Source: Saccharospirillaceae bacterium
Lineage (GTDB): Bacteria; Pseudomonadota; Gammaproteobacteria; Pseudomonadales; Oceanobacteraceae
Assembly: GCA_022448365.1 (NCBI GenBank)
Contig: JAKVCS010000003.1
Span: forward strand, 124,001-188,000
DNA length: 64,000 bases
Direction of reading: 5' to 3'
Within the stretch, counting starts at the first letter, position 1, and each line of letters opens with the position of its first letter. Below the pieces are notes generated by a model. That model worked only from the letters and a program-made list of their open reading frames with translations. It had not been told where the DNA came from and searched no databases. Of the stretch, positions 29,259 through 40,045 are shown piece after piece. The translations under genes and the position numbers were made by a program.

Positions 29259-30719
29259 TCAGCAATCCAATACGGCAAAGTCACCTTTTTCCTGAGCAAT
29301 CAGGTGATGCGCATGAATCTTACTCATCGTCCCTTTTTGACAATACAGCAGGTGGCGCTTGCCTGAATCAAGTTCCGATACTTTGCTATCCAACTCGTAA
29401 AATGGGATTGTCAGCACACGGTTGTTGGTTAAATGCAATGGGGCGTCTTCAACTTCGTTCGGGTGGCGAATATCCACCACGACATCATCAATAGCAGGGG
29501 TTGAAACCAACTGCACACTTTCCAGGCCACTGTCCTCGCCACTTAAGACATCATCAATTCGCTCAATTTTGGCATTATCTAACGCTTCATCCAGAACCGT
29601 AAAATCAAAATCTTGTTCGGTTTTCTCGACCTTCGCCAGACTGCCTACGGTGGTAGGTCGCACAGAAATGACGCCACAATACTCTGGCATAACGGCAGCA
29701 AAGGTTTCAGTGCCAATGCGGCGCGAGATATCGATAATCTCGGGTTTATCCATGGCCGCCAGGGGGCGCAGCACCATATGATCCGAAACCTTATCAATAA
29801 CTGCCAGGTTGGTGAGCGTCTGGCTAGCAACCTGAGCGACCGACTCGCCCGTAACGACTGCCGGAAGATTTAAACGACCGGCAACGCGTGACGCCGCCCT
29901 TAGCATCATGCGCTTGAGCACCACCCCCATCTGGGCAGTATCAATATTCTTCAGAATCTCCTCAACCACCCCCTCAAACGGCACCGTAATAAACTTAACT
30001 CGATGACTCTCGCTGTAGTTTGCCCAAATATAATTCGATACTTGCTTGACGCCGATTTCGTGAGCACTGCCTCCTAGATTAAAAAAACAGTAATGCGTTT
30101 TGATTCCCCTGCGAATCATCAAATAACTGGCAACCGTGGAGTCAAAACCGCCAGATATCAGAGACAATGCCTCACCTTGTGATCCAAGAGGGTAGCCGCC
30201 GATACCCGCTACCTGATGCCGAACAACCTGAACTTTGTTGTTACGGATTTCCGCTTTCACAACAACATCCGGGTTTTTAAGGGAGACTGTGCTGGCCTCG
30301 GTTTCTTTTAACAGCCCGCCACCCATGTAGATTTCTGCCTGATGCGAGGTGAATGTGTGCTGACCAGAGCGCTTGATCCGTACACAAAATGTTTTACCCG
30401 CAAGCTCCTCGGCGTAGGCTGCCTTAACGTGCTGATAGGCTTCATCCAGTGTTGTGAATTCGTACTCGACAATTTCAAGGGCGGCACCAATACCAGGGGT
30501 ATGGGTTAAAATCTGAATTGCATGCCGACGAGCTGCGTCATCATCGTGATTGAGCACCACAACCAGGCTGTCCCAGCGGTTTTGAACGTCCGCCGATAAT
30601 TCATGTTTGCGAAAAAGCGTCTGCAGGTTCTGTCGCAGGATCTTGGTGATCTGCTTACGCACAGGACGCGATTTAATGGTTATTTCCGGAAACAATTTAA
30701 TTACAAAGTTTGTAGACAT
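29259..30719 (-). CDS. thiI: tRNA 4-thiouridine synthase with rhodanese domain
   Basis: Sulfur-transfer enzyme that makes 4-thiouridine at position 8 of tRNA and, in enterobacteria, also helps thiazole synthesis. The order is: N-terminal ferredoxin-like and THUMP domains (about 1-165), PP-loop ATPase with LISGGFDSTVASYLMIRRG, the conserved cysteine in MPEYCGVISVRPT, and a C-terminal rhodanese domain with DIRHPNEVEDAPL and the persulfide cysteine C460 in LLYCQKGTMSKIHA. The 486-residue length is that of the long E. coli-type form. It is a single-gene unit on the minus strand, divergent from phaB. Confidence 0.96.
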   Translation of the reverse strand: MSTNFVIKLFPEITIKSRPVRKQITKILRQNLQTLFRKHELSADVQNRWDSLVVVLNHDDDAARRHAIQILTHTPGIGAALEIVEYEFTTLDEAYQHVKAAYAEELAGKTFCVRIKRSGQHTFTSHQAEIYMGGGLLKETEASTVSLKNPDVVVKAEIRNNKVQVVRHQVAGIGGYPLGSQGEALSLISGGFDSTVASYLMIRRGIKTHYCFFNLGGSAHEIGVKQVSNYIWANYSESHRVKFITVPFEGVVEEILKNIDTAQMGVVLKRMMLRAASRVAGRLNLPAVVTGESVAQVASQTLTNLAVIDKVSDHMVLRPLAAMDKPEIIDISRRIGTETFAAVMPEYCGVISVRPTTVGSLAKVEKTEQDFDFTVLDEALDNAKIERIDDVLSGEDSGLESVQLVSTPAIDDVVVDIRHPNEVEDAPLHLTNNRVLTIPFYELDSKVSELDSGKRHLLYCQKGTMSKIHAHHLIAQEKGDFAVLDC

Positions 30720-30925: not shown

Positions 30926-31672
30926 ATGACAAAACGTATCGCGTTAGTAACCGGTGGCACCGGTGGTATCGGTACTTCAATTTGCAAGCAGCTGCATGAT
31001 GACGGCTATCAAGTGATCGCGGGGTATTATTCCGGCGGCAATCATGAGAAGGCGCAGACATGGCAGGATCAGATGAAAGCCGATGGTTACGACATTGCTG
31101 TCGCCTACGGTAACATTCGTGATTTTGAATCGTGCCAGACCTGTATTGAAGGCATTCGCAAGGATTTTGGCAGTGTCGACATCCTTGTTAATAATGGCGG
31201 CATTACTCGGGATACAACTCTGAAGAAAATGTCACCTGAGCACTGGGACGATGTAATCGCCACCAACCTGACCTCAGTTTTCTACATGACCCGGCTGGTC
31301 ATTAACGACATGCTCGAACAAAAGTGGGGGCGTATCGTCAACATCTCTTCCGTTAACGGTGAAAAAGGGCAGTTTGGTCAGGCCAATTACTCCGCTGCGA
31401 AAGCGGGCATGTATGGATTCACTAAGGCGGTGGCACAGGAAGTTGCAAGCAAAGGAATCACTGTTAATACCGTGTCGCCCGGTTACATTGCGACATCCAT
31501 GATCATGGATGTGCCTGAGGAAATTCGCGAGCAGATTCGCAAAGGGATCCCTATCGGGCGCTTTGGTAAACCAGAGGAGATTGCCCGCGTCGTCAGCTTC
31601 CTGGCTGGTGAGGAAAATGGCTTTATCACCGGAGCCAATATTTCGGCCAATGGCGGACAGTATATGAACTAA
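30926..31672 (+). CDS. phaB: Acetoacetyl-CoA reductase
   Basis: NADPH-dependent short-chain dehydrogenase that makes (R)-3-hydroxybutyryl-CoA, the monomer for polyhydroxybutyrate. The 248-residue protein has TGGTGGIGTSICKQL in place of the FabG-like TGASRGIG, NNGGITRD, serine in NISSVNGEKGQFGQ and the YxxxK pair in ANYSAAKAGMYGFTK; GQFGQ and the VSPGYIATSMIM region are typical of PhaB. A strong ribosome site precedes it. No phaA, phaC or phasin gene is adjacent, so the pathway partners must lie elsewhere. A terminator follows. Confidence 0.92.
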   Translation: MTKRIALVTGGTGGIGTSICKQLHDDGYQVIAGYYSGGNHEKAQTWQDQMKADGYDIAVAYGNIRDFESCQTCIEGIRKDFGSVDILVNNGGITRDTTLKKMSPEHWDDVIATNLTSVFYMTRLVINDMLEQKWGRIVNISSVNGEKGQFGQANYSAAKAGMYGFTKAVAQEVASKGITVNTVSPGYIATSMIMDVPEEIREQIRKGIPIGRFGKPEEIARVVSFLAGEENGFITGANISANGGQYMN

Positions 31673-32620: not shown

Positions 32621-33856
32621 CTAATAGTCGGGCTTCAGTTTCTTGTGACGGGCGCTTGCATGACGTTCGCGCATCTCGGTGTCAATATAGCGATCGGTTG
32701 TCGCCATGCTGGCATGACCAGCATCTTCTTTTACATGTTCTTTCGGGCGGAACTTAACATCTTCTGAGATGCCTGTATGTCGCAGCCAGTGAACAGTCGC
32801 CACCTGAAGCTCCTCGGCCTCATCTTGTAAGCCTTCTTCGCGCATTCGCTGATAAGCCGCGTCAAAACAGCCCTGAACAAGATAACGAATCTGGCGGGTA
32901 CTGGTGACCGGGCCACGCCCTTTGATTTTGGCAACAATCGGGGTTTGCTCTCCAATACGAGGCAATGGGGACAACCCCAGATGTTCCCGATAACGCCGCA
33001 ATGCACGAAGCATATCATCCGACACGGTAACCATTCTGACCTTGTTGCCTTTACCGACCACGCGCAACCACCAGTGCTGATCCCGATCCTGCTGAAAATC
33101 GCCCATCACCGGAGTCCCTCGCTCATCAGCAACCAGTTCTGAAATCCGCAAATACATGCCAAATAAGCAACGCATGACAAATAACGAACGCTCGTGTTCT
33201 TTCGGGTTATCCTGTGCCGATCGCTCAACCGTTTCAAGGATATAGTCCCACTGTAAATTAGAGATTCGACGGATTGGTTCCTGGTACGCATGACGCTGCA
33301 AATAGCGACTGCGTTGCCGAATCAGTTTGATCGGGTTGATTGCAAGGTAGTCTTCCTGCTGCAGGTAATTGAAGTAAGTCGACAGAATTGAGAAAACCGC
33401 TTGCAGGCTTTTCTGCGATAAGTTGAAGTCATTCGTTTGAGATCGTTTGTTTTGCTGCGCAACAAAAGGCCGCCAGTCAGAATTGATCACTCGCTCACCC
33501 TGAGAGTTTCGGAATCGCGCCACCTGGCGATCCCCAACCCAAGAAGGGGGAGGGGACTGACAAAACGCCAGGTAATCTTCCATATCCTGGCGATTCAACT
33601 CTGCTAATCCGGCCTGACGAATTAGCCAACTCCACTGCAGCAACCTTTCTACCTCTCGCCGGTAGCTGTTAAACGTCGCAGAGGAGCCATTGTAGCTACC
33701 TAAAAAATTGAGACTGTTCACCAGGTCATCGTAGATCTGATCAATAGCGCGCAACTCCGGCTGTCGCTGGAGTATCGATCGCGCGTAGGTAAGTGGATTG
33801 CCAATATGAACTGCCTGATCAAAAAGAGGTGTTGGCGGAAGGTCGTTGATTTTCAT
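32621..33856 (-). CDS. Tyrosine recombinase (site-specific integrase)
   Basis: A 411-residue phage-integrase-family protein. The catalytic residues can be assigned: R237 in MYLRISELV, K269 in VVGKGNKVRMV, H356 and R359 in VHWLRHTG, H381 in DAGHASMATTD, and nucleophile Y390 in DRYID. The N-terminal 200 residues form the SAM-like core-binding part, longer than in XerC/D. All active residues are present, so it is probably functional. No tRNA, excisionase or phage gene is adjacent. Similar stand-alone integrases occur in pseudomonads, so it may be a resident gene. A short sequence shared with the far side of the mod operon lies just before its start. Confidence 0.9.
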   Translation of the reverse strand: MKINDLPPTPLFDQAVHIGNPLTYARSILQRQPELRAIDQIYDDLVNSLNFLGSYNGSSATFNSYRREVERLLQWSWLIRQAGLAELNRQDMEDYLAFCQSPPPSWVGDRQVARFRNSQGERVINSDWRPFVAQQNKRSQTNDFNLSQKSLQAVFSILSTYFNYLQQEDYLAINPIKLIRQRSRYLQRHAYQEPIRRISNLQWDYILETVERSAQDNPKEHERSLFVMRCLFGMYLRISELVADERGTPVMGDFQQDRDQHWWLRVVGKGNKVRMVTVSDDMLRALRRYREHLGLSPLPRIGEQTPIVAKIKGRGPVTSTRQIRYLVQGCFDAAYQRMREEGLQDEAEELQVATVHWLRHTGISEDVKFRPKEHVKEDAGHASMATTDRYIDTEMRERHASARHKKLKPDY

Positions 33857-33866
33857 TGCTGCAAAT

Positions 33867-33883
33867 AATTATCGGAATAATGG
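33867..33883 (+). repeat. Left copy of a short direct repeat flanking modCBA
   Basis: AATTATCGGAA followed at once by TAATGG. The same 11 bases occur at 36905-36915, followed there by ATA and then TAATGG, in the same orientation. This copy lies about 11 bases upstream of the recombinase start codon, in its leader. It contains only one half of the palindrome seen at the right copy. It may be an attachment-like site or a shared operator; chance similarity is possible for so short a match. Confidence 0.45.
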
Positions 33884-33963
33884 GTACGATACGGAATTGG
33901 CCATTCTGAAACAACCGCTGAAATTCGGCTAAATCATTCCATAGCAGGGCTATCAAAGACAGC

Positions 33964-35097
33964 CTAGCGAACGATGGCTGCTGACTTAATCTGAGCCCAG
34001 ACTCGCTTGCCTGGCTGGAGTTGCAACTGATGGACAGAGCGACGTGTTATACGCGCGAGCAACATGGACAATCCATCTTCATTCTCTAAGCTAAGCTGCA
34101 AGATTGCCGTAGCACCATCAATTTCTTTGATGCTTTGAATGGTCGCCGGAATTCGGTTGGCGATGCTGCTCTCTAACTGATCATTCAAGGCAATGCTGAC
34201 ATCTTTGGCAGGAACTCGGATTCTTACCAACTCGCTTGCGGTCGTTTCCGATTGCACCAGGTTATCATCGCTGAGCCACAAGCCTCCTCCAGGGAATCGC
34301 AACCTGGCGAGGTGCCAGTCGGTATCGAAGCGCTCAATGGTTGCCTCCAGTACGGAACCGACATTGTCGGTCTCAAAGCCAATCAATCCGGCTTCGGAAA
34401 ACACCTCATTCACCACTCCCTGAGTTGAAATGACCCCTCCATCAAGCACTACGGCGTAGTCAGCCAACCTGGCGACTTCGTCCATTGAGTGGCTGACATA
34501 AACCATAGGGATATCCACAGTCTGTTTTATGCGCTCAAGGTAGGGGAGAATCTCCTGCTTGCGCTGTCGGTCAAGTGCCGACAACGGCTCATCCATCAAC
34601 AGCAACTGTGGCCCGACCATCAGAGCTCGGGCAATCGCAACGCGCTGTTGCTCTCCACCCGACAATTCATCCGGCTTGTTATCGAGCAGCGCTGACAAAC
34701 CAAGCAGCTCGATAATTTCGTTACATTCCGCTTTATTCAGAGAACTGGCAGAGCGTTTGATTGCGAAATCAAGGTTTCCGGAAGCAGTCAGGTGAGGAAA
34801 CAGACTCGGTTCCTGAAACACATAGCCAATCGGTCTCTTCCAGGCTGGCAGTAGAACGTTATTTTTATCACTGTCGTCTTGCCAGATCGATCCATCAACC
34901 TCAAGAAAACCCGGGAAATCTGGCTCCAATCCAGCCAGCCACCGCAATAAAGTTGTTTTGCCGCAGCCGGAACGGCCACAGATCGCGGTAACACCAGAGG
35001 CTGGAATATCCAGATTCAGGTCCAGATTAAATTGCTTGCCAGTCGGTTTAGGTTGTCGCTGCAATTGCAGACGCATACGAATTCTGCCGGACATCAA
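33964..35097 (-). CDS. modC: Molybdate ABC transporter ATP-binding protein
   Basis: Cytoplasmic ATPase of the high-affinity molybdate importer, 377 residues. It has Walker A (CGRSGCGKTTLLRWLAG), signature LSGGEQQRVAIARAL, Walker B (LLLMDEPLSALD) and the switch histidine in VYVSHSMDEVARLAD. The C-terminal third contains a TOBE/MOP domain region that binds oxyanions (SELVRIRVPAKDVSIALNDQ and VWAQIKSAAIV at the end). It is the last gene of modABC on the minus strand, 52 bases after modB. Confidence 0.94.
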   Translation of the reverse strand: MMSGRIRMRLQLQRQPKPTGKQFNLDLNLDIPASGVTAICGRSGCGKTTLLRWLAGLEPDFPGFLEVDGSIWQDDSDKNNVLLPAWKRPIGYVFQEPSLFPHLTASGNLDFAIKRSASSLNKAECNEIIELLGLSALLDNKPDELSGGEQQRVAIARALMVGPQLLLMDEPLSALDRQRKQEILPYLERIKQTVDIPMVYVSHSMDEVARLADYAVVLDGGVISTQGVVNEVFSEAGLIGFETDNVGSVLEATIERFDTDWHLARLRFPGGGLWLSDDNLVQSETTASELVRIRVPAKDVSIALNDQLESSIANRIPATIQSIKEIDGATAILQLSLENEDGLSMLLARITRRSVHQLQLQPGKRVWAQIKSAAIVR

Positions 35098-35149
35098 GCT
35101 CCAACCTGCTGATTATTTTCATTGGGGTATATCTCGATCGTCAGCCAGT

Positions 35150-35836
35150 TCATCGAACAATAGAAGCCTGTTGCTTCTGACTTAGGTACAAGCCAAGTAA
35201 TACAACAAAAGCAAACACCACCATGAGTCCAGACAATGCATGCGCCTGCGCATATTGAAGGGCTTCGACATGATCATAAATCTGCACCGAAACCATGCGG
35301 GTCTCATCTGGAATATTGCCGCCAATCATCAGCACAATACCAAATTCACCAATGGTATGAGCAAAGCCTAAGATGGCTGCAGTGACGAAGCCCGGCTTTG
35401 CCAATGGCAAAACAACACTGAAAAAACGATCGAGCGGACTGGCCCTGAGAGTGGCAGCAACCTCTAGCGGTCGGGCGCCGATGGCTTGCATGGCGTTCTG
35501 AATCGGCTGAACAACAAACGGTAGCGAATAGAGCAGCGACGCCACAACCAAGCCTGGGAATGTAAACGGCAGAAGTCCAATCCCCAGGCTTTGTGTCAGC
35601 TTACCCACGGGACCCTGAGGACCCATAGCAATCAACAAATAGAAACCCAGCACGGTTGGCGGCAATATCAAGGGCAGGGCAACCACGGCGGAAACAACCG
35701 CCTTCCAGCGAGAGCGCGTATTGACCAGCCACCAGGCGATTGGTGTGCCGATAAACAGCAATAGCAAGGTGACCACGCTGGCAAGCTTTAAGCTTAGCCA
35801 GATGGCACCAATATCTGCATCAGATAACATCATCAT
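35150..35836 (-). CDS. modB: Molybdate ABC transporter permease
   Basis: Inner-membrane permease of 228 residues with about five membrane helices, including [18 protein letters not shown] and [17 protein letters not shown]. The ATPase-contact (EAA) loop is [25 protein letters not shown], and [19 protein letters not shown] is typical of ModB. Four bases overlap the end of modA, so they are translationally coupled. Confidence 0.95.
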
Positions 35837-36654
35837 TTAGCCAGATCATATCCATAAGACCGGATTATGGCACGTCCAGTCTCAGATTGAATAAAGCGAT
35901 GCAATTCAATCGCCGGGCCAAAGCCGGAGCCTCTTCTGGTCAGCACCATGTCTTGGCGAATAGGATGATAATAGGACTTCGGCACCACCCAGGCAGAACC
36001 GGCTATCAGGCGGCCTTCAGCATACGCCTGTGACCGGGCGACAAAACCGATCCGTGCATTACCACTGGCAACAAACTGATAGGTCTGTGCAATGTTTTCA
36101 CCGGTAATCAATCTGGGTTTCGTTTGATGGTGCAAATTCAGGGTTTTAAGTACCTCTGTGGCAGCCATGCCATAAGGGGCTAGTTTTGGATTCGCAATTG
36201 CCAATCGTCGGTAATTATCGGAAATAAGATAGGTGTAATCTAACTGGATATCGTCTTCAGAACTCCACAGTACCAAAGTGCCAAGAGCATAGGTTTTCAG
36301 AGAAACAGGATCCGCAAGGTCAGCCTCAATCAACGCCAGCGGCTTATGATGATCTGCAGATAGAAACAGATGAAAAGGTGCACCATGACTTATCTGAGCA
36401 AACAGCTTTCCGGACGATGCGTAAGAGATTTTCAGGTTGTGGCCAGACGACCGTTCAAACTCCCGAGCAAGATGCTTCATAGGGATAATAAAATTAGATG
36501 CGGCACCGACATAGACTGTATCGCCATAAACGAGCGTCTTAGTGAACAAGGATGTCAGCATCAAAAGCAGCAACCCGTATATTCGCCGGGCAAACCCCGA
36601 GTACCAGGATGAATCTAAGTTGGGCAAATCGTTCGCCTTATGGGCTGTTAACAT
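35833..36654 (-). CDS. modA: Molybdate-binding periplasmic protein
   Basis: Periplasmic receptor for molybdate/tungstate. Family motifs are [45 protein letters not shown], the ALGTLVLWS strand and [10 protein letters not shown] hydrophobic segment ([20 protein letters not shown]) serves as signal peptide. The start is unclear: I give the ATG at 36654, which makes a 273-residue precursor with a longish N-region; an in-frame ATG exists at 36756 and another inside the hydrophobic segment. No good ribosome site marks any of them. It begins modABC. Confidence 0.88.
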
Positions 36655-36889
36655 GTACCGCGCCAGTGTGATGTAATGGTTTGGATGGCTCAAGCCATAA
36701 ATCTCAGAAAGTGGAGTTTGCAGTGGAGCATAAGGATTTTGAAATGTGTTCCACAATATTCAATCAACATTAACTCATCATTCCAAGTGGCTGTTCTAAA
36801 AGCTTTATTTAGAGATTCTGGGTGAGATAACGTGGCAGAGCATCGGTAAAAAAACTGTGGCACCACTGGCCAGAACGGTTCACGCATAA

Positions 36890-36917
36890 TATTCCGATAA
36901 TACCAATTATCGGAAAT
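36890..36917. repeat. Dif-like palindrome upstream of modA (right copy of the flanking repeat)
   Basis: An 11-6-11 layout: TATTCCGATAA, spacer TACCAA, TTATCGGAAAT. The inner ten bases of each arm region (TTCCGATAAT / ATTATCGGAA) are exact reverse complements. Inner ends ATAA and TTAT around a six-base spacer are as in Xer/dif core sites, but the outer arm sequence differs from dif. It could serve the tyrosine recombinase encoded 3 kb away, or be an operator for modA. It lies about 240 bases before the chosen modA start. Confidence 0.5.
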
Positions 36918-37267
36918 ATAATGGACTCTCTGACCAATCCTCGTACTCCGTCAGTTAGCCTCGCCGATTTTAGTATTTCGACTTACAGGCCGATTTTGTT
37001 TCGCTGTACAGCGTTCGGATCATCTTCAGCACTTGATCAGAGTCCGCGAAGATCAGATGACCTCGTGCCCGTGATCATACAGCCCTGTCCGGCTTTGTAG
37101 CAGCTTCCGATCGAAAGAAATGGGCGCTGGATTTCTTCCGATCTCACAGCGTAATGAACAAATCACACTCTAGCGCCTCCATGACAACTGAAACTGGGTT
37201 TTTCTGAGTGATTACGTTAGACTGCGCGCCCTTTCAAAACAGCAGTTACAGCAGGTATCAAGACACT
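36918..37267. other. Rest of the modA-rapA divergent gap, with a 13-base hairpin
   Basis: About 350 bases without a gene. It contains an inverted repeat at 37109-37143 (GATCGAAAGAAAT, nine-base loop, ATTTCTTCCGATC, one imperfect pair), which also repeats CTTCCGATC directly at 37104 and 37135. There is no T-run after it. It could be a leader structure or operator for rapA. I see no convincing sigma-70 promoter or small ORF. Confidence 0.4.
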
Positions 37268-40045
37268 ATGTATTCAGTAGGTCAGCGTTGGATTAGTGAA
37301 GCCGAAACGGACTTAGGCCTTGGTTTAATTCAGGACGTTGATTTCAGAATGGTAACCGTCTATTTCCCGGTTATTGATGACGTCCGCACCTACTCCAAAC
37401 AAAACGCCCCGCTTACGCGCGTTCGTTTCAAAGTTGGCGATATTGTCCCGCTTCAAGACGGTGGCAACATTACGATCACCGAAGTCCAGGAACAAAATGA
37501 CCTCATCTTCTACGGCGATGATGAGCGCTTCGTGCCAGAGACTCACTTGAGTGGCCAGATACAACTCAACCAACCAACAGATCGCCTGTTCTCAGGTCAG
37601 ATTGATAACAACAATCTGTACGAACTGCGTCAGATCGCGCTGCAACAACTGAGCAAATTGCGCAAACGTCCATTCTATGGGCTGCTGGGTGGCCGCACCT
37701 CTTTGCTGCCTCATCAGCTGTACATTGCTGAGCAAGTTACTCAGGATTCAATCCCGCGCGTGTTATTGGCCGATGAAGTTGGCCTGGGTAAAACCATTGA
37801 AGCCGGCCTGATTCTGCATCGCCTGTTACTGCAGCAACGTATTTCGCGCGTCATGATCATGGTACCGGATCACCTGCTGCACCAATGGCTGGTTGAAATG
37901 ATTCGTCGCTTCAATCTGCGCTTTAGCATTGTGGATCGTGCCATGGTGGCAGAAAATCGACTGGCCGCAATGGAAGGTGAAGTCAGCAATATGTTTTCAG
38001 ACAGTCAATTGTTCCTCTGCCCTTTGTCAATTGCTACCCAAACCGAAGTCGCTGCACAAATGACCTCTTCCGATTGGGATATGCTGGTCGTTGATGAAGC
38101 GCACCATTTGGAATGGAACGAAGACGGTCATGACGATGCTTACGGTCTGGTCGATCAGATTTCAACTCAGACCCCTGGCCTGCTGCTGTTAACCGCGACG
38201 CCGGAACAGCTCGGCATCAATGGGCATTATGCACGCTTGCGCCTGCTTGATCCGGAGCGTTACCCAAGTTTGCAACAGTTCCTCAAGGAGCAGCAACAAT
38301 ATCAACCGGTCGCCGTACTTGCATCGGCACTGGCCGGTGATGACGCACTGAATAGCGACCAGAAGATGGCGCTGGCTGAACTGCTACCCGACATGGCCGA
38401 CAGTGAAGATCAAGGCAAGCAACTCGAAACACTGATCGACCGTCGCGGACCCGGCCGCGCCCTTTATCGGAATACCCGCCACGGCGTCAGTGGATTCCCA
38501 AAACGCAGTCCGAATATTGGCTATCTGCCAGTGCCCGAGTACACAGAAGCAGCGGGTAAGGATCTGGAAAGTGGCTTATTCCCGGAGCTGGGCGTCAACA
38601 ACTGGAGTGACAGTGATCCACGCTGCGATTGGCTGCTCGATGTTCTGGCGGCTCAAAAAAAAGAGAAAGTGGTGCTCATCTGCCATTCTGCTCAGACTGT
38701 GCTCGATCTTGAAAAATTCCTGTGGGAAAAACACGCGACGCCGGCAGCGGTTTTCCACGAAAACATGGACCTGGTTGAGCGCGACCGTGCCGCTGCCTAT
38801 TTTGCTGATCATGAACAAGGCGCACGCATCCTACTGTGTTCCGAGATCGGTAGCGAAGGTCGTAACTTCCAGTTTGCCCATCACCTGGTGCTGTTTGATT
38901 TGCCGTTTAACTGCGATTTGCTTGAGCAGCGCATCGGTCGTCTTGATCGTATTGGTCAGAAGCATGATATCCAGATTCATATCCCGGTGTTCGAAGGCCA
39001 TCTCAATGGCCGGTGGGCAAGCATCCTGAACGAAGGTCTGGATGTGTTCACCCGACCCAACCCGGCGGCGCAGCCGTTACTGGAGAAGTACCGGGCTGAC
39101 ATCCAACAAGCCTTGCAAAGCGACACAGACCTGGGAGCATTAATCACTACCCTGGCTGTCGAGCGTGACGAGTTACTGCAAGCACTTGAAGCGGGTCGCG
39201 ACCGTTTGTTAGAACTGCATTCTTGCCACCCGACGAAAGCCCGTGAACTCGGCCAGGAAATGACGATCACCCACATTGAGGACGAAGCCGAACTGAACGA
39301 CTTTATCGAGCTGTTTGCTGACGCGTTCGGACTCGACCTGGTGGATTTAGGGGGTGAATGCATCACCATCGCGCCGGGTGATCACATGTTGGTTCCGGAC
39401 ATGCCACATCTCCCTGAAGATGGTTTTATGGCAACTACAAACCGTGACATCGCACTTTCTCGGGATGATGTGCAATTCCTCAGTTGGGAGCATCCGTTTA
39501 TCGATCAGGCTCTGGAGTTAATTGTCAGCAGCCCATCCGGGAATGCGGCGGTTGGCTACATTGAAGATCATGGCCATAACACCGGTGATTGCTTTATTCA
39601 GCTGCAGTTTGTTGCTCAATGTGCCGCTCCCAAAGCGCTACAAGTCGAACGCTATCTGCCACCTAACGCCATGCACCTGATGATGACACCAAAAGGTGAT
39701 TTGGTAGTGAATGAACCAGAGAGCCTGCCGGGTTTTGCCCTGCCATTGAAGAGAGGCACCGCACGCGGCCTGGTTGATCAAAAAACCGCTGAAACGCAGC
39801 CGCTGATCCACAAGTTGGAAAAGCTTGGCGCAGGACAGCTGAGTAAAATGGTGAAGCGCGCAGAAGCCAAAGCAGAGGAAGCTTTCGATGCTCGTCTGGA
39901 ACGCTTACAAGCGTTATCCGTGCAGAACCCGAACATCCCTACCCAACTGGTCGATGCTGTCAAACAAGAGCGCGAACAGGTACTGACCGCGATTCGCGAT
40001 TCCCAACTGATTCTCGATAGCGTACGCCTGGTATTCTGTGGCTGA
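37268..40045 (+). CDS. rapA: RNA polymerase-associated ATPase RapA
   Basis: SWI/SNF-family ATPase that binds RNA polymerase and promotes its recycling. From the chosen start the protein has 925 residues. The N-terminus MYSVGQRWISEAETDLGLG matches the family start, and is why I prefer this ATG over one 20 codons earlier. The Tudor-like N-terminal domains are followed by helicase motif I (LLADEVGLGKTIEAGLIL), the DEAH motif II (LVVDEAHHLEW), LTATPEQLG, and motif VI (LEQRIGRLDRIGQKHDI). The C-terminal RapA-specific region is complete. A bidirectional terminator separates it from gor. Confidence 0.96.
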   Translation: MYSVGQRWISEAETDLGLGLIQDVDFRMVTVYFPVIDDVRTYSKQNAPLTRVRFKVGDIVPLQDGGNITITEVQEQNDLIFYGDDERFVPETHLSGQIQLNQPTDRLFSGQIDNNNLYELRQIALQQLSKLRKRPFYGLLGGRTSLLPHQLYIAEQVTQDSIPRVLLADEVGLGKTIEAGLILHRLLLQQRISRVMIMVPDHLLHQWLVEMIRRFNLRFSIVDRAMVAENRLAAMEGEVSNMFSDSQLFLCPLSIATQTEVAAQMTSSDWDMLVVDEAHHLEWNEDGHDDAYGLVDQISTQTPGLLLLTATPEQLGINGHYARLRLLDPERYPSLQQFLKEQQQYQPVAVLASALAGDDALNSDQKMALAELLPDMADSEDQGKQLETLIDRRGPGRALYRNTRHGVSGFPKRSPNIGYLPVPEYTEAAGKDLESGLFPELGVNNWSDSDPRCDWLLDVLAAQKKEKVVLICHSAQTVLDLEKFLWEKHATPAAVFHENMDLVERDRAAAYFADHEQGARILLCSEIGSEGRNFQFAHHLVLFDLPFNCDLLEQRIGRLDRIGQKHDIQIHIPVFEGHLNGRWASILNEGLDVFTRPNPAAQPLLEKYRADIQQALQSDTDLGALITTLAVERDELLQALEAGRDRLLELHSCHPTKARELGQEMTITHIEDEAELNDFIELFADAFGLDLVDLGGECITIAPGDHMLVPDMPHLPEDGFMATTNRDIALSRDDVQFLSWEHPFIDQALELIVSSPSGNAAVGYIEDHGHNTGDCFIQLQFVAQCAAPKALQVERYLPPNAMHLMMTPKGDLVVNEPESLPGFALPLKRGTARGLVDQKTAETQPLIHKLEKLGAGQLSKMVKRAEAKAEEAFDARLERLQALSVQNPNIPTQLVDAVKQEREQVLTAIRDSQLILDSVRLVFCG

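Follow-up and report, generated by a model that had tools for sequence, protein, structure and literature searches.

What does a tyrosine recombinase gene do beside a short sequence that recurs, in the same orientation, on the far side of three molybdate transport genes? The question is posed by a stretch of 64,000 nucleotides, here called the window, from the genome of a Saccharospirillaceae bacterium (assembly GCA_022448365.1, contig JAKVCS010000003.1, positions 124,001 to 188,000), for which a preliminary description proposed a site-specifically inserted, possibly excisable cassette of modC, modB and modA. Both repeat copies do lie at the positions given there, 33867-33883 and 36905-36924 (mean count in 100 shuffles, 0.00), the two-part repeat pair occurs nowhere else in the whole genome, and repeat and recombinase do belong together, as was then held. 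What they belong to is, with a probability that we put at roughly 0.9, a chromosome dimer resolution system with one recombinase, of the XerL/dif type, here outside the Legionellales. Its parts in the window are the following:

32621 to 33856, minus strand: xerL, encoding a 411-aa tyrosine recombinase of the XerL clade with its catalytic residues intact (homology, alignment, tree)
33867 to 33877, plus strand: half-site AATTATCGGAA in the xerL promoter, consisting of the right dif arm and the last two central bases, with no left arm (sequence match)
36892 to 36915, no strand assigned: dif, an arm of 9 bp, a centre of 6 bp and an arm of 9 bp, with a 10-nt perfect dyad; it includes the right repeat copy (inverted-repeat search and family comparison)

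The right copy (36905-36915) is one arm of a perfect inverted repeat, TTCCGATAAT-ACCA-ATTATCGGAA (36892-36915), whose 10-nt arms are 100% complementary and stand 4 nt apart; laid out as a dif, the same 24-bp palindrome reads TTCCGATAA-TACCAA-TTATCGGAA. The window's genome holds no other match to it with fewer than two mismatches. Across the window's family, one perfect palindrome per genome was found in 40 of 44 genomes and in 8/8 genera, with G001 and G004 having an additional place with one mismatch beside the perfect one. For the left copy no inverted-repeat partner was found, and when it is aligned to dif, its left-arm and central-hexamer positions are unlike those of the site. The original inventory of two copies was accurate and incomplete, since a third exact AATTATCGGAA inside modA (36213-36223) had been overlooked; with one mismatch allowed, AATTATCGGAA has 7 matches where 1.41 are expected. 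TAATGG, which had been taken as the second part of the repeat, is absent from the copies of relatives.

The palindrome lies at the replication terminus. The distance from dnaA to the site is 0.469-0.498 of the circle in 13/13 genomes measured (12 one-contig genomes and G004, which is in two contigs; genome lengths were rounded for five), and a local maximum of the cumulative GC skew falls at most 4 kb from the site in six of nine stretches (eight of 100 kb, and the window). In 43 of 45 cases, the motif GGGNAGGG, the FtsK-orienting polar sequence (KOPS) of E. coli, is directed toward the site, and the best switch of the pooled orientations lies within 1 kb of it. Because G-rich motifs are polar in general (41 permuted KOPS motifs had the site-directed orientation in 934 of 1188 cases), the excess of KOPS itself is only moderate (Fisher p 0.004). 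The palindrome is a single-copy terminus site, and it is not an attachment site of modABC. Copies in the xerL promoter and upstream of modA might also suggest an operator bound by some common regulator of molybdate or other genes, with no part in recombination, and palindromic operators are indeed common. We regard this as extremely improbable, given a perfect palindrome that is single in the 40 genomes just mentioned, that is fixed at the terminus, that is conserved where modABC is missing, and that in Marinomonas lies 6.6-210 kb from xerL (14 genomes measured).

By its sequence relationships, the recombinase is a member of the XerL clade and a conserved gene of the family. In a tree of 42 proteins it falls in a clade of 27 rows (support 99/97), where sequences of the window's order surround those of Legionella adelaidensis, Rickettsiella and a Coxiella sp. 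metagenome-assembled genome (MAG); the tree took in two XerD rows, which lie outside the XerL clade, and neither XerC rows nor L. pneumophila XerL. The Legionella adelaidensis, Rickettsiella and Coxiella sp. homologues share 49-57% identity with the window protein. Within the family, a homologue of 56-100% identity was found in 32 of 34 genomes when the window's own is included, and one of 56-80% in 31 of the 33 others. That the enzyme is intact, as had been noted from the sequence, is borne out by an alignment of 13 sequences, across which R237, K269 or K272, H356, R359, H381 and Y390, the catalytic residues of tyrosine recombinases, are invariant. Among profile models, Phage_integrase was matched below its cut-off, while the scores for XerC (68.5 bits, cut-off 335) and XerD (49.9 bits, cut-off 330) fall far short and that for XerS does not reach its cut-off either (22.3 bits against 267). 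A predicted structure was of modest quality (mean predicted local distance difference test score, pLDDT, 72.6, with residues 359-411 below 50; predicted template modelling score, pTM, 0.48), and a fold search with it returned XerD, XerH and XerA as top matches at template modelling (TM) scores of 0.21-0.36, so that only the broad fold is supported; searching solved structures by sequence yielded only two marginal matches. In Oleispira-type loci (L052, L053 and L055-L058, genus g6), a second recombinase of about 31-36% identity lies some 1.5-3 kb downstream of xerL.

A phage search for XerL gave three weak records. Plasmids carry many distant homologues of the recombinase (1681 records, every one below 60% identity), and some Neisseriaceae-type genomes have a homologue of 31-36% identity, beside the palindrome in L163, L183 and L189. 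Both observations would suit an additional recombination system, such as integron-like capture or a domesticated plasmid resolvase, in cells whose dimers are resolved by something else. That account fits poorly with a single-copy site at the terminus, with the lack of any site array, with the finding of no XerC or XerD over the cut-off, and with a recombinase that stands in the clade of the Legionellales XerL, an enzyme proven experimentally in L. pneumophila; we give it hardly any weight. An integron-like cassette was dropped for related reasons: the full site is single-copy and terminus-placed, there is no array, and the left copy lacks one arm.

If XerL and its dif resolve dimers in this family, what has become of XerC and XerD? 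Neither the XerC nor the XerD cut-off was passed by any family genome (0/44 for each), and the canonical gammaproteobacterial dif core (22 bp, up to 3 mismatches) was found nowhere in the window's genome and in 1 of 44 family genomes, G062, with two matches on contigs of 5.9 and 12.8 kb. The order was sampled with 391 genomes at least 90% complete, and homologues of the recombinase were classed as any (E up to 1e-60) or close (E up to 1e-115). XerD was over its cut-off in 265 of these 391 genomes and a recombinase homologue was present in 135. Where the homologue is a close XerL, 79 of 87 genomes have no XerD; where it is more distant, 34 of 48 have none and 14 have one; where there is none, XerD was found in 243 of 256. 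The resulting near-exclusion of XerL and XerD has a Fisher p of about 1e-39, uncorrected for shared descent. Genus g23 of family f16 is mixed in this respect, with XerD only in G190, G245 and G327, a close XerL and no XerD in G209 and G371, and a distant homologue and no XerD in G048, G170, G280, G356 and G401.

Several observations weigh against the XerL/dif interpretation. Few control genomes passed the cut-offs, 2 of 14 with the XerC model and 4 of 14 with the XerD model, and the absences of XerC and XerD therefore lean on the 265 order genomes in which XerD passed. XerD also accompanies a close XerL in eight of the 87 genomes (two in f14, five in f28, one in f4), and 13 of the 256 genomes with no homologue are without XerD as well. 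The palindrome is missing from four of the 44 family genomes, G028 (99% complete), G032 (96%), G058 (72%) and G062 (86%); G032 also has no recombinase homologue, and G028 has only one of 39%. The f34 genomes G106 and G177 have XerD, no XerL, and the palindrome in more than one copy, and the palindrome turns up in unrelated bacteria, including Prevotellaceae and Lachnospiraceae, several of them with two copies 150-200 bp apart. Finally, the skew maximum is 7.7 kb off the site in the window itself, and 17.6 and 25.8 kb off in two other stretches. The paired palindromes of unrelated bacteria perhaps belong to another recombination element that shares the core.

Within the order sample, the palindrome (at most one mismatch) was found in 44 of 391 genomes: 17/17 of the window's family, 20/20 of f26, five others with a close XerL, and two of f34. 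Close-XerL families without the palindrome (f6, f43 and others) must use another site, and a variant site was seen upstream of xerL in some of them. Family f26 includes Marinomonas, where XerL was present in 7/7 named genomes searched. XerL also lies near the same palindrome in Thalassomonas sp. RHCl1 (Colwelliaceae) and Aestuariibacter sp. AA17 (Alteromonadaceae). For distant homologues (36-44%), a site pattern yielded a full site in only 2 of 14 loci.

Other occurrences of the palindrome were recorded along the way. Paired copies are found at L111, L116, L131, L147, L156, L177, L206 and L215, four of which come from one MAG. The loci L127 and L139, of Neisseriaceae-type or other betaproteobacterial genomes, carry the palindrome, and at L163 it lies 50 bp upstream of a recombinase homologue of 32% identity. 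Rickettsiella massiliensis (L125, L152) has it twice, on two contigs.

A system of this kind is already known, and for the window's group it is apparently undescribed in the open-licence papers searched. In L. pneumophila, a single recombinase, XerL (lpg1867), is both required and sufficient for recombination at dif, a site at the terminus whose 10-bp dyad arms are perfect, and deletion of xerL leads to filamentation (PMC9765430). The same 2022 study, whose ortholog search was made within the Legionellales, calls xerL restricted to that order (PMC9765430). Open-licence papers, considered by title and abstract, gave no report of an XerL-type system outside the Legionellales, and open-licence papers gave nothing on chromosome dimer resolution in Marinomonas. 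The locus resembles the Legionellales system in its one tyrosine recombinase, its terminus dif, the lack of any detected XerC or XerD, and a single supported protein clade; it also shares perfect 10-bp dyad arms, a likeness to Legionella dif by description and not by letters (PMC9765430), and the palindrome of the window recurs in Rickettsiella and the Coxiella sp. MAG. It differs in that the window's family belongs to another order and keeps a lone half-site in the xerL promoter, and in this family xerL and dif lie 0.1-53 kb apart (27 genomes measured).

With XerCD/dif of E. coli and most Proteobacteria, the system has in common the ATAA-N6-TTAT layout of the core (PMC2731167), the position at the terminus and the KOPS polarity, whereas it has one recombinase and not two, symmetric arms, and a family in which XerC and XerD were not found. 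XerH/difH and XerS/difSL likewise combine one recombinase with one dif, and the structures of XerD, XerH and XerA were the top fold matches of the modest model; by the XerS model, however, the recombinase is not XerS, and XerH was compared through the fold search only. With SCre/SloxP, a plasmid Cre-like system, the site has in common the core TCCGATAA-N6-TTATCGGA of SloxP, and the difference is that SCre/SloxP serves as a genome-engineering tool.

A 2009 survey left dimer resolution open for several large-genome Proteobacteria without XerCD/dif, and it lists Colwellia psychrerythraea among the species without dif/Xer (PMC2731167). For the Legionellales, XerL supplied the answer in 2022. The finding of XerL and the palindrome in Thalassomonas, a member of the Colwelliaceae, bears on that case at the level of the family. 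Systems of the XerL kind extend to the Thalassolituus group and Marinomonas, to 87 of 391 order genomes by close homology, and to members of the Colwelliaceae and Alteromonadaceae, and XerL/dif seems to have replaced XerC/XerD in the window's marine group and a number of others. If active, it would make chromosome dimer resolution a replaceable module and the positions of dif predictable in many genomes.

How might the system work? We infer recombination activity and FtsK control along the following lines. XerL would bind the two arms of the palindrome (36892-36915) as a homodimer and, where sister chromosomes are fused as a dimer, would recombine their two dif sites before cell division. FtsK probably controls XerL, and would reach the site along the KOPS-like polar motifs. 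In the window's family, XerL/dif would stand in for XerC, XerD and canonical dif.

The left copy, which starts 11 bases 5′ of the recombinase start, calls for a different explanation from the right one. In the region up to 150 bp upstream of xerL at 32 family loci, the half-site TTATCGGAA was found at 22 in right-arm orientation, 12-128 bp upstream of the xerL frame as matched; one locus has a full site there, and nine have neither full nor half-site. The flanks in these 22 promoters are conserved, with A on the 5′ side in 22 and AA in 20, and N, T (21) and A (21) on the 3′ side, a 3′ flank from which the window's left copy deviates. G019 and G023 keep the half-site although their dif is 24.6 and 52.6 kb away, respectively. 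Several other lineages have a complete or almost complete palindrome some 50-200 bp ahead of xerL, in some cases with altered arms, e.g., ATCCGATAT and TTCCGGTAA, and in Marinomonas and several f6 and f43 genomes no palindrome was found at that place. From such comparisons of promoter sequences, the ancestral site would have lain in the xerL promoter, the working dif now being farther off in the family, and the retained arm, a half-dif, is probably an operator through which XerL would regulate its own gene. A broader scenario, to which we give even odds, is that XerL with a palindrome just upstream of its own gene formed a self-contained module, perhaps of plasmid or chromid origin, that repeatedly displaced XerC/XerD on gammaproteobacterial chromosomes, even within one genus (f16/g23), and that in the window's family the full site moved away and the promoter half-dif was kept as an autoregulatory operator.

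Within the xerL-dif gap, the window, G001 and G017 have extra half-sites, AATTATCGGAANTA, at 663-781 bp from dif, and G012 has one in the same sequence context as G017; the expectation for such half-sites is 0.009 per strand in 577 kb. An accessory half-site was rejected as a general feature because few dif loci show one. The 9-bp half-site was found in just 2 of 22 Marinomonas dif loci, in 0 of 22 further dif loci (mostly from the window's family, some from one genome, with flanks often no longer than 1.5 kb), and in 2 of 13 other dif loci, both times more than 3 kb away.

There remain the genes between the two copies and those on either side. The former are modC, modB and modA, and RapA is next door; here the curated models agree with the preliminary description. 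The features are these:

33964 to 35097, minus strand: modC, molybdate ABC transporter ATPase, a gap occupant outside the system (TIGR02142, 376 bits, cut-off 285)
35150 to 35836, minus strand: modB, permease, a gap occupant (TIGR02141, 243 bits, cut-off 183)
35833 to 36756, minus strand: modA, substrate-binding protein, a gap occupant with an uncertain start codon (TIGR01256, 198 bits, cut-off 62.5)
36213 to 36223, plus strand: third AATTATCGGAA copy, within modA and 692 bp from the matching dif arm (exact match)
37268 to 40045, plus strand: rapA, beyond dif (NF003426, 1067 bits, cut-off 576)
29259 to 30719, minus strand: thiI, neighbour on the xerL side (model match, family synteny)
30926 to 31672, plus strand: acetoacetyl-CoA-reductase-like gene, on the xerL side (model match, family synteny)

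The surroundings of the system are more constant than its interior. Of the 32 family loci, 31 have thiI and 21 the reductase gene on the xerL side; rapA follows dif in 18, many of the remaining stretches stopping short of its expected place. The gap between xerL and dif ranges from 112 bp to 52.6 kb (27 genomes with both on one contig), and its contents are mostly unrelated from genus to genus. At one extreme, in Bacterioplanes sp. Kmv21 (L044) xerL is followed after about 112 bp by the full site and then by rapA, and the gap is free of genes. Only two genomes, the window's own and G001 of the same genus, were seen to carry modABC in the gap; the genes occupy the same place in both at only 37-67% identity between the two, which suggests that they have long been resident there. 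Among 10 of 57 gap open reading frames scanned, which leaves the longest gaps (G004, G019, G023, G030) outside the scan, all were of ordinary cellular families (DUF4382, TPR, Na/Pi cotransporter, beta-CASP hydrolase, phosphoketolase, P-type ATPase, Na/H exchanger, flavin oxidoreductase, GntR/aminotransferase and sulfate permease), with no transposase, phage or conjugation family.

Could modABC nonetheless be a site-specifically inserted, excisable cassette or island between a dif copy and dif, in the manner of an integrative mobile element exploiting Xer (IMEX), with one site intact and one modified? The bounding of LME-1 in Legionella by one intact and one modified dif (PMC9765430) offers a precedent. 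The common orientation of the two sites around the gap, the variable length and genus-specific contents of the gap, and the existence of a gene-free one would fit such an origin. The gap of G030 even contains two recombinase-like frames (C2:488607-490231; 83 and 71 bits with the XerC model), 0.7-2.3 kb from dif (490913), from which it follows that mobile DNA enters some gaps. However, the left copy has neither the left arm nor the central region, and simple integration would be expected to leave the chromosomal left arm there. Irrespective of what fills the gap, 22 of 32 loci keep the half-site in the xerL promoter, conservation of the recombinase across the family does not depend on modABC, and the full site is the single-copy site of the terminus. 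The apparent long residence of modABC and the ordinary cellular families of the scanned gap reading frames point the same way. Relatives with the recombinase near rapA and no modABC, to which the preliminary description had looked, do exist, Bacterioplanes sp. Kmv21 among them, but they look like varying gene content around a fixed dif locus. We consider an excisable cassette quite unlikely. On the XerL/dif interpretation, modABC is a mere occupant of the xerL-dif gap in this genus and no part of the system, and old insertion at dif may be the source of some gaps. A recombinase-adjacent repeat at a terminus, then, need not flag a mobile cassette.

Two minor observations may be added. On a 0.8-Mb replicon of Pseudoalteromonas (L323), a recombinase homologue of 40% identity has the site GTCCAATAC-N6-GTATCGGAC just upstream (2929-2952), possibly serving dimer resolution of a second replicon. 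In the window, a 13-nt inverted repeat (92%) lies 5′ of rapA, at 37109-37143.

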